Source of the DNA: Collimonas antrihumi
GTDB lineage: Bacteria > Pseudomonadota > Gammaproteobacteria > Burkholderiales > Burkholderiaceae_D
DNA: 64,000 nt
Direction: 5' to 3'
NCBI RefSeq assembly: GCF_018304965.1
Contig: NZ_JAGQED010000012.1
Location: 1 to 64,000, forward strand
Made by a program: the position numbers and the translations under genes. This document shows positions 12,605 through 57,970 of the stretch, one piece after another. Within the stretch, counting starts at the first letter, position 1, and every line of letters begins with the position of its first letter. The notes under the pieces are model-generated. The model was not told the DNA's origin. It was given only the letters and a program-made list of their open reading frames with translations, and did no database searches.

Positions 12605-12657
12605 CGGTTTCATAAGTGCTTTTATGACTATCCACAAAATCTGTGGATAACTTTGTG
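12605..12657 (+). repeat. DnaA-box direct repeat, copy 1
   Basis: It begins CGGTTTCATAAGTGCTTTTA and contains a TATCCACA, then TGTGGATAA at 12642-12650 (perfect DnaA box), then CTTTGTGG. It matches 13060-13113 over most of its length. Confidence 0.7.
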
Positions 12658-13039
12658 GACAAGGTTGCGTAAACAACGTGAAAGCGCCTGTTTACGACAT
12701 TTTTTTGCTTTTGCTCAAACTAGCATCAATAAAAATAGTATTTACAATCAAATACTTAACGAGCACTTACCAGACGAGTAACATTTTTCATGTAGTCAAA
12801 AAATAGCCTTGAAGAAACTCGAATATGTGCATAACTAAAGTCGGAATCTGCGAGAACCGGCACAGTCGCCAGCACCAAAAAGTAACATTCATGGGCACAA
12901 TCAAATCCATTGGTGCGCACCATCATGTTGCTTTTTTCAGTCGGGTTACCAAGTTTCGCACCGGAAAAATTAGCCCGATGTCAACTGTCAAAAATGCTCG
13001 GGAATTCTTGATTTCTAGGATTCTACTTAAAGTAAAGTA

Positions 13040-13059: not shown

Positions 13060-13113
13060 CGGTTTCATAAGCGCTTTTCAAATTATCCACAATGTCTGTG
13101 GATAACTTTGTGG
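13060..13113 (+). repeat. DnaA-box direct repeat, copy 2
   Basis: It contains TTATCCACA at 13083-13091 and TGTGGATAA at 13097-13105, two perfect DnaA boxes facing each other with five bases between. The flanks match copy 1 at 12605-12657. Confidence 0.7.
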
Positions 13114-13423
13114 GTAACCTGCTCTTGACAGGCCGCAGACGCATATTTGATGCGGGTTTCAATAAATTGCCTAAACTAAAAGCAGAAAATAAACCTTTTA
13201 AAATCAAACACTTACAAAACGCACCCAAGTGGAAAATAATAAATATAGTTATAAATAATTTCCGTGGTGCAGCAGATTTTTTTGTGCATAACTAGCGAGT
13301 GGCAATCGCCTGATTGGTGCCGAATGTGTTATGCATGACACCGTGTAACAACATTCTTCACCGGGCAGCAGGCATCGATTCGCGCCGGCAAGCGCCTATC
13401 CGCACATGCCTACCCTCTCGCGC

Positions 13424-48217: not shown

Positions 48218-48233
48218 TGTTTCACGTGAAACA
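48218..48233. promoter_or_regulatory. parS: parS centromere site 1
   Basis: TGTTTCACGTGAAACA is the perfect 16-base palindromic consensus of bacterial parS. It lies 107 bases upstream of mnmG and is the loading site for the ParB encoded at 42.9-43.8 kb. Confidence 0.95.
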
Positions 48234-48276: not shown

Positions 48277-48292
48277 TGTTTCACGTGAAACA
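48277..48292. promoter_or_regulatory. parS: parS centromere site 2, in a longer palindrome
   Basis: A second perfect TGTTTCACGTGAAACA, 59 bases from site 1. The symmetry extends to 30 bases (48270-48299) through GGCGAT/ATCGCC arms, so the transcript could fold and the site may also act as a terminator between the TSUP gene and mnmG. Confidence 0.95.
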
Positions 48293-56244: not shown

Positions 56245-57117
56245 ATGGATATTACCCAACTTCGCGCCTTCGTCACCGTCGCCAGGGAAGGAAACCTGAC
56301 CCGCGCTGCCGAATTACTACATGTCACACAACCGGCTGTCAGCCTGCAAATCAAGTCATTGCAGAGCCGCTAGAATCTGCAATTATTTATACGCATTCCA
56401 AGTAGCATGACGTTGACCGACGATGACAGCAAGTTACTGCCATTTGCAGAACGTGCAATTGCTGCCGTGTCCGAGTTACGCCAACAAGCAGAAAGCCTGC
56501 ATTCAAACAGCTCAGAAATCCTGAGCGGAAAACTCGCGATCGGTACAATTCTCGATCCTGAATTCATCCGGCTCGGTACCTTTCTCCAGCGTTTGGTAGA
56601 AAGTTATCCACAGCTTTCCACACAGTTGCAACACAGCATGTCTGACGATGTACTGCGGCAGATCAAATCAGGCCATCTCGATGTCGGTTACTACCTTGGT
56701 ATACCAAACAAAACTTTCCATCGGCTCACACTGACACAATTTACTTACTGCGTGCTTGCACCATCAGGTTGGAAAAGCCGTGTTTCTGGAAAAGACTGGC
56801 CGGCTTTGGCTGAATTACCCTGGATTTGGACGCCGCCAGAGTCGGCCCATCATCGTTTACTCAGTAAAACCTTTGCTCAATACAAAGTTGCTTTGGTTGA
56901 CCAGGAACCATCGATGCTGGATCTGGTGAAATCCGGAGTCGGTCTATCTTTAGTGCGTGAGTCAATTGCATTGCGTGAAGCACATGCTCATGGCCTCGTA
57001 ATTTCAGATACGGTCAATTTATCCACCGAACTTTCGTTTATTACCCTGGATAAACGTAAAGACGAACCAGTCATAGCTGCGATATTTGCCATATTGAAGA
57101 CGATTTGGCGTAATTAA
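56245..57117 (+). pseudogene. LysR-family regulator interrupted by one in-frame stop
   Basis: The frame from ATG 56245 reads as a LysR HTH (MDITQLRAFVTVAREGNLTR, AAELLHVTQPAVSLQIKSLQ). A TAG follows at 56371-56373, and it continues in the same frame (NLQLFIRIPSSMTLTDDDSK) to 57117, giving 290 codons, the normal length. The TAG stands where LysR proteins have Leu (SRL-N-LQLF), so a single base change (TTG to TAG) explains it. No other damage is seen in the effector domain, so the mutation is recent, a sequencing error, or suppressed. It would have controlled the divergent GMC gene. Confidence 0.85.
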
Positions 57118-57180
57118 TGTCTTAAAAACATTTTTTTAGAGCAGAAATCCTCTTTTTTTGGAAAACCAGTTTCTTCAGCT

Positions 57181-57299
57181 TTGTATTTAAAGATTTATAT
57201 ATATAAATAGTAGTAGTAGTTAACCACGTGCTTTTCTGTGGATAACTATGAATTTGACTATTCATTCAAGCACTTACGACTTGGATAAAGGCTGAGTAA
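57181..57299 (+). repeat. Origin module, copy 1
   Basis: Order of parts: AT-rich TTTAAAGATTTATATATATA (57186-57205), TAG four times (57208-57219), a short GC-richer spacer (CCACGTGC), DnaA box TGTGGATAA (57237-57245), then a shared tail. By eye it differs from copy 2 at 5 of 119 positions, three of them in the spacer. Confidence 0.9.
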
Positions 57300-57572
57300 A
57301 CCTTGTATCTGGAAAGAACATTTCTTGGATAAAAAATGAGGTGTGGATATCTAACGCGATTATTCACAATGGATTCCTGCAGTTATCCAAAGACTTATCC
57401 ACAGTTGCTTTTCTGAATCTCCTTCTTTTCTACTTTCGCTGTAGATGTCTTTTGTAAATTTCATCAAAAGGAACTTGAACAAAAAACCAATTTTTTTTGA
57501 GAAGTTGGTTTTTTAACTTTTTTTTGTTAATTATTTTTTTAAAGCAACTTCAAAAGAAAAAGCTTTTCGGTT

Positions 57573-57691
57573 TTGTATTTAAAGATTTATATATATAAAT
57601 AGTAGTAGTAGTTAACGCCCTGCTTTTCTGTGGATAACTATAAATTTGACCATTCATTCAAGCACTTACGACTTGGATAAAGGCTGAGTAA
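57573..57691 (+). repeat. Origin module, copy 2
   Basis: It is the same as copy 1, shifted by exactly 392 bases: TAG four times at 57600-57611, spacer CGCCCTGC, DnaA box at 57629-57637. The order AT-rich, then TGTGGATAA, parallels E. coli oriC, where the unwinding element precedes box R1. Confidence 0.9.
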
Positions 57692-57970
57692 TCGGTGTAT
57701 CCCTGAAGAACAGTTCTTGGATAAAAAGAGGGTTGTGGAAAACTTTCTCAGATATCCACAATTGAAAAACACGATATCCACAGCTTTATCCACAAAATTG
57801 AAAAATTTGTCTGAATTTGCTTGTTTACCGCTGTTTTTAAGTCCGGCCAGGCAATTTTTAAGAAAAATTTTCTCCTGCCTAAATAATGAGCACCGCCAAA
57901 GAAAAGAAAAATCTGGACAAGCGAAACTCAAAGCCTTAATGTACGCATAGCGTATATAAGGGAGATGTGA

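Follow-up and report, generated by a model that had tools for sequence, protein, structure and literature searches.

Descriptions of bacterial replication origins give them a single unwinding element and a single set of DnaA boxes that serves it. In the bipartite origin of Bacillus subtilis a single unwinding element is shared by two clusters of boxes, and natural single-chromosome Vibrio cholerae carry the joined origins of two replicons. Helicobacter pylori likewise has two DnaA-box clusters and one unwinding element, according to an excerpt of PMC8235120. The arrangement known as BUS is set out in excerpts of PMC8287927 as a DnaA box, a spacer, a run of 3'-GAT-5' trios and an AT block, with at least three trios lying no more than 16 bp from the DnaA box; the same excerpts report such cores in 85% of 2070 origins, surveyed with a program that keeps the best candidate, and >99% of the genomes end with one. 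A published core search of this kind, like any other prediction program that retains a single candidate for each origin, would miss repeats for that very reason. Gao 2015 (PMC4403523) gives a single origin as the normal state and lists a few putative double ones. Among them, Ralstonia pickettii has putative second origins beside hemE and beside dnaA by sequence criteria, and the same paper stated that, as of 2015, no bacterial chromosome had been shown ever to use two functional origins. A natural single-chromosome V. cholerae with two functional origins is cited in an excerpt of PMC10225481. In a search of open-licence papers we recognised no description of repeated complete origin units.

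We analysed a 64,000-nt stretch of the genome of Collimonas antrihumi, a soil bacterium (the stretch is called the window), in which an 853-bp gap at 57118-57970 is bounded by a LysR-type gene and an aspartate carbamoyltransferase gene. The gap holds a direct repeat whose two copies are offset by 392 bp, with 200 nt at 86% ungapped identity. The initial annotation had described two near-identical copies 392 bases apart, each with four consecutive TAG triplets and a DnaA box, and had placed three of the five differences between them in the spacer. Comparison of the repeats bears out each of these points and makes the repeat longer than was noted: five of 119 bases differ between 57181-57299 and 57573-57691, three of them (57225, 57226 and 57228) within the trio-to-box spacer, and once the 3' DnaA boxes are counted each unit measures about 230 bp, both lying within 57174-57794. 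For comparison we use the box names R1 and R4 of E. coli oriC. Each unit has the order AT/TATA block, four TAG triplets, 17 nt, the box TGTGGATAA, an IHF-like site, three weaker boxes and an opposed TTATCCACA. Identities in the following list of features are means over 12 genus relatives.

48218-48233 and 48277-48292, strand not assigned: two perfect parS sites, centromere-like, 9 kb from the units
57174-57206, plus strand: unit a AT/TATA block, predicted unwinding element; identity 0.907
57208-57219, plus strand: unit a four TAG triplets (DnaA-trios, 3'-GAT-5' from the box); identity 0.987
57237-57245, plus strand: unit a R1-type DnaA box, TGTGGATAA; identity 0.991
57264-57276, plus strand: unit a IHF-like site, one mismatch to WATCAANNNNTTR, 18 nt past the R1 box
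57342-57391, both strands: unit a inner DnaA boxes, one mismatch each (57342 plus, 57360 minus, 57383 minus)
57395-57403, minus strand: unit a R4-type DnaA box, TTATCCACA, opposed to R1; identity 1.000
57404-57565, strand not assigned: linker between the units, with A/T tracts; identity only 0.724
57566-57598, plus strand: unit b AT/TATA block; identity 0.977
57600-57611, plus strand: unit b four TAG triplets (DnaA-trios); identity 0.981
57629-57637, plus strand: unit b R1-type DnaA box; identity 0.991
57656-57668, plus strand: unit b IHF-like site, 18 nt past the R1 box
57734-57782, both strands: unit b inner DnaA boxes, one mismatch each (57734 plus, 57752 minus, 57774 minus)
57786-57794, minus strand: unit b R4-type DnaA box; identity 0.991

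Measured from the R1 box, the DnaA boxes of copy a stand at 0, +105, +123, +146 and +158 and those of copy b at 0, +105, +123, +145 and +157, with the R4-type box of each unit about 160 bp from the R1-type box and in the opposite orientation. The inner boxes of the two Collimonas units differ from each other in sequence. Each AT block overlaps one of the five least stable separate 60-bp windows in the 64 kb. The last TAG is 17 nt from the R1 box, a distance that would shorten to 13 nt if the TAA at 57221-57223 acts as the first trio. Judged from this anatomy, what is duplicated is a whole predicted origin unit of the E. coli type, with an IHF-like site and an R4-type box, and extends beyond the core alone. 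E. coli oriC, read for comparison, has GATCAA 18 nt after R1, as here, and R4 180 bp from R1; the matching position of the IHF-like site and the R1/R4 arrangement argue that the unit is of the E. coli type with a clear DnaA-trio run added. The neighbouring LysR-type gene (56245-57117) contains an in-frame stop, with an HTH part at 56245-56371 and a substrate domain at 56407-57117; among 12 relatives it is open over 299-300 codons in nine and 316 in one, and is shorter at locus L004.

Over the 12 genus relatives, the trios and the R1 and R4 boxes have identities of 0.98-1.00 in both copies, and the AT blocks and R1-R4 intervals together 0.86-0.98, as against 0.72 for the linker and 0.64-0.68 for the outer gaps. 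The R1-R4 intervals (0.86-0.88) are slightly above the adjoining coding ends (0.82-0.84). By these measures both copies are under selection. The same figures bear on the view that the locus is oriC but that one unit opens, the other being kept as a DnaA-binding platform that delivers or titrates DnaA, in the manner of the non-unwinding half of a bipartite origin. Two box clusters for one unwinding element, as in the H. pylori excerpt (PMC8235120), the differing inner boxes of the two Collimonas units and the occurrence of single-core genomes (29 of 294 in the family) would all agree with it. A platform, however, needs neither AT blocks nor trios, and here the AT blocks (0.91 and 0.98) and trio sets (0.99 and 0.98) are nearly as conserved as the boxes. 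We regard a platform as unlikely, though deserving serious weight, and we lean, with modest confidence, towards both units being able to open.

We searched for further units with a sequence-only core profile (R1) built from 43 cores, the two copies described here among them; having been trained on family members, it favours the family and can overlook cores that have diverged. In the 4.72-Mb genome of this strain it gave exactly two matches (E = 3e-21 and 5e-20), with 14 of 389 first-look candidates scored. Since genome searches scored only part of such candidates (up to 103 elsewhere), the absence of further units depends on the first-look filter. Of 294 family genomes, 105 contain the pattern TAGTAGTAG-N5..30-TGTGGATAA and 2 contain its backwards control. 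For the unit as a whole we assembled 87 units from 41 chosen loci (42 searched; locus L248, which repeats G017, was left out), 26 of them being closely related Collimonas units. An IHF-like site with no more than one mismatch lay 10-19 nt past the R1 box in 75 of these 87 units, 21 of the sites being exact; when the 50 nt after the box were shuffled (100 trials, with a wider range of 8-32 nt), a mean of 2.0 units and a maximum of 7 had such a site. The R1 and R4 boxes are conserved in the consensus of the 87 units. On the profile matches and the pattern counts, the two-copy pattern is not attributable to chance.

The locus with both units is present in 13 of 15 Collimonas genomes, this one included; the two without it are a 1.7-Mb genome (G001) and one that is 86% complete (G004). 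At the family level, the core profile matched at least once in 266 of 294 genomes, of which 237 have two or three units: one core in 29, two in 167, three in 70 and none in 28. All 32 matching genomes of genus g6 have three cores and all 11 matching genomes of g5 have one. Given the single-core genomes (29 of 294) and those with none (28 of 294), one unit may suffice in some relatives, for example g5. Forty genomes assembled in one or two contigs, from 14 genera, were examined for arrangement. Thirty have two units and ten have three, and in each of the 40 every match at E <= 0.01 falls in one locus, spanning 337-3395 bp with a median of 788. The units are in direct order in 36 and inverted in four (G153, G183, G193 and G203). 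In G203 (L233, 4807-5796) the inverted units are identical over 242 nt and form a perfect inverted repeat at the origin. The distance from dnaA to the units is 7-789 kb in the 23 genomes with an exact circle length; for the other 17 the circle length is known to 0.1 Mb, which makes short distances approximate (one of them is 2 kb). Six Collimonas genomes in one or two contigs have the units 49-62 kb from dnaA. A search of the order gave matches in 55 of 399 genomes, 14 in the family and 41 outside it. The outside matches are mostly weak; nine of these genomes have two or three, and close-set units were seen in three, namely G508 and G654 (about 600 bp apart) and G437 (about 3 kb, inverted). 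Repeated units are thus, as far as profile matches tell, a trait of the family and not confined to this genome. The initial annotation had named absence of the repeats from all relatives as a ground against its reading; they are found in 12 of 14 genus relatives at the locus itself, and as two or three cores in 237 of the 294 family genomes.

Several lines of evidence place the origin at the units. They form the densest DnaA-box cluster on contig C3 of our draft genome and, in G003 and in G010, the densest in the 400 kb around dnaA. A small cluster at 225-532 of the window has five DnaA boxes with no more than one mismatch, one of them perfect. Reading the GC skew of contig C3 every 5 kb puts its minimum close to 65 kb, about 7 kb rightward of the units. 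Relative to dnaA, the units of G003 and G010 are found at -49 and -50 kb; the 10-kb skew bins there are negative over the stretch -100 to -40 kb, and the change to positive comes with the bin beginning at -40 kb, about 10 kb past the units on their right. On the same scale G010, also a Collimonas, reaches its cumulative minimum at -42.7 kb, about 7 kb rightward of its units. The skew of G003 is noisier: within 200 kb of dnaA the absolute minimum of its cumulative curve falls 21.7 kb beyond the gene, on the right-hand, far side, and adjoins a strong local skew at dnaA. In these three genomes the switch, where readable, lies about 7-10 kb to the right of the units. G148, from another genus, provides a sharper test, with dnaA about 353 kb from the units, which are at 355-356 kb. 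All 9 blocks that separate dnaA from the units, running to 350 kb, have negative skew, and all 7 past the units, from 360 kb on, have positive skew; of four blocks on the opposite side of dnaA, three are negative and one is slightly positive. The sign in G148 switches at the units, not at dnaA. In G278 no clear skew switch was seen at the units or at dnaA. The polarity of GGGNAGGG, an FtsK-type motif, was tried as a second strand marker, and the counts per 20 kb were too low for use.

The two perfect parS sites are 9 kb from the units in the window. Among 22 other genomes scanned, parS lies 2-12 kb from the units in seven (G003, G010, G018, G148, G193, G203 and G278) and was not found in 15, most of which were covered for about 5 kb on each side of the units. 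No other parS was found in 400 kb of G003 or of G010, nor was any on 100 kb of the contig that carries dnaA in this genome. Around dnaA in this genome there is a perfect box upstream of the gene, a set of three between it and dnaN of which one is perfect, and a further box, with a mismatch, inside it. The same genome has a second short DnaA-like protein (G000:C6:75264-75437, an open frame of 244 aa), which we take to be probably an Hda-type regulator.

Two tandem elements with three DnaA boxes each lie between priA and hemE, at 12628-12662 and 13083-13117, 44 kb from the origin units. Their box offsets, 0(-), +14(+) and +26(+), are exactly those in the E. coli bioD-uvrB gap, the site of DARS1. 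Excerpts of PMC5742627 describe DARS cores as three boxes at fixed spacing with box I opposed to boxes II and III. Of 294 family genomes, 176 have the exact three-box pattern, and none of the genomes listed has its backwards control; the pattern is often paired or tripled, about 340-810 bp apart. In 13 of 17 genomes compared it lies 26-55 kb from the origin units, and in the other 4 at >300 kb. We infer a DARS function for the priA-hemE elements from this spacing, and a DARS-like element of this sort might also be what PMC4403523 lists as a putative 'second origin' next to hemE in Ralstonia.

These observations bear on the alternative that the origin is elsewhere, at dnaA or at the priA-hemE box cluster (12.6-13.3 kb), with the units serving as a datA-like DnaA sink. 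It could draw on the putative second origins beside hemE and dnaA in R. pickettii (PMC4403523), on the boxes upstream of dnaA and between dnaA and dnaN, and on the G278 skew with no clear switch. It is set against the skew in G148 and G010, the skew that stays negative from the hemE-side cluster to the units in G003 and G010, and the 40 genomes with no core-profile match near dnaA beyond the clustered units; moreover, a DnaA sink needs neither trios nor AT block. We consider this alternative barely credible. An origin at dnaA was rejected on the G148 and G010 skew and on the placing of parS, and one at the priA-hemE cluster was rejected on the lack of a skew switch there in G003 and G010 and on its DARS1-type box spacing. 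The initial annotation had treated a skew minimum beside dnaA as evidence against its call; such a minimum is contradicted in G148 and G010, and the noisier G003 has its absolute minimum past dnaA. The single-locus core matches, the skew switch and the parS sites 9 kb away make the locus very probably oriC, detached from dnaA, and our confidence in its identity as the chromosomal oriC is high. The first reading of a chromosomal origin with a duplicated core thus gains support from skew, parS and relatives, and is amended in two respects: a whole unit is duplicated, and the duplication is a trait of the family.

We then considered the history of the copies. In a tree of the 87 units, whose bootstrap is not fully settled, the 13 Collimonas b copies form one clade (99/99), which marks the copies as old, and the a copies split over several groups with no single clade. 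Two unit types group across g4, g6, g28, g35 and g56 (98/99 and 93/94). Copies from the same genome cluster in g2, g3, g10, g39, g44 and g46, and some do so in g4, g31, g35 and g40; later duplication or conversion is a possible cause of this within-genome grouping. It might be argued that the repeats are passive, that is, young or repeatedly converted duplications that have no function themselves. The same-genome groups just listed, the 242-nt identity of the inverted units in G203 and the lack of a single clade of Collimonas a copies would be expected if so. That view is opposed by the b clade, by the two types shared across five genera and by the conservation of both copies far above the linker, and we judge it very improbable. 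Concerted evolution as the general cause of copy likeness was rejected on the single clade of Collimonas b copies.

We propose that this oriC consists of two tandem, complete and semi-autonomous units of the E. coli type, one opening per cycle being enough, and we think this probable. Comparison of sequences carries the anatomy, the origin position and the retention and age of both copies, which can be regarded as demonstrated to the extent that such comparison allows. In the proposed working, DnaA would bind the R1-type box of a unit, an IHF-like protein would bend the DNA just beside that box, and further DnaA would assemble towards the opposed R4-type box. The DnaA filament would then move onto the strand of the AT block that carries the TAG triplets (the DnaA-trios) and so open the block, allowing the helicase to be loaded. 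Either unit could open, and a single opening would suffice in each cycle; the second copy may be kept to raise the reliability of initiation or to tune its DnaA threshold. That each unit can act alone is suggested by the complete anatomy and equal conservation of the two.

A different use of two units would be a division of labour, in which both open in one event and each loads one of the two helicases of the bidirectional forks. The placing of two helicases at one origin is called unclear in an excerpt of PMC10201434, and the inverted pairs in 4 of 40 genomes (G153, G183, G193 and G203) would suit such an arrangement. In 36 of 40, nevertheless, the repeats are direct, so that the DnaA filaments would all come to lie on one strand; three units occur in 10 of 40, and spans reach 3.4 kb. 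We find a division of labour improbable. Direct order in 36 of the 40 genomes disfavours a strict need for opposed helicase loading, and three units in 10 of the 40 favour units that are interchangeable. The reading of semi-autonomous units could be extended to the whole family, as a composite origin of two or three complete, individually competent units, in tandem or inverted and kept distinct for longer than the genera have existed, of which one unit or a coordinated pair is used per cycle with no sequestration of the SeqA type; we put this forward tentatively. SeqA gave no match in this genome, and the E. coli control was positive. The 853-bp gap has no GATC, where its composition predicts 2.6; zero was obtained in 42 of 500 shuffles, which is not significant. 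Depletion of GATC, suggested by the 5.6 expected at the rate of the window, was dropped given the AT-rich composition of the gap.

A family with units repeated two or three times, direct and inverted, amounts to a set of natural experiments. It makes testable the autonomy of a unit, one start per cycle without SeqA, and the placing of two helicases, and the arrangement could reveal what sets the site and the frequency of opening at an origin. The core profile also offers a practical origin finder where the origin is up to 789 kb from dnaA.

Set beside the described systems, the locus resembles E. coli oriC in its order of AT-rich block, R1 box, IHF site, inner boxes and opposed R4. It differs in that E. 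coli has one such unit and this family two or three complete ones, and in its clear run of TAG trios, the BUS score of E. coli being relatively weak in the excerpts of PMC8287927. The BUS of the B. subtilis type has the same box, spacer, trios and AT block, which are here repeated; the 17 nt from TAG to box are one above the published limit of 16, and 13 if the TAA counts. The bipartite origins of H. pylori and B. subtilis likewise have more than one DnaA-box cluster per origin. Unlike in those, every cluster here comes with an AT block and trios to itself, and dnaA does not separate the clusters; the units of the 40 genomes stand together in one locus away from dnaA. The cited cases of multiple origins are distant loci, duplications of the dnaA region or joined replicons, in single strains, whereas here like units stand in tandem in one intergenic gap (in Collimonas), and are old and widespread in the family. 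The logic of the unit is thus that already known from E. coli and from BUS; what appears to be new is its repetition, as complete predicted units, two or three times across a family.
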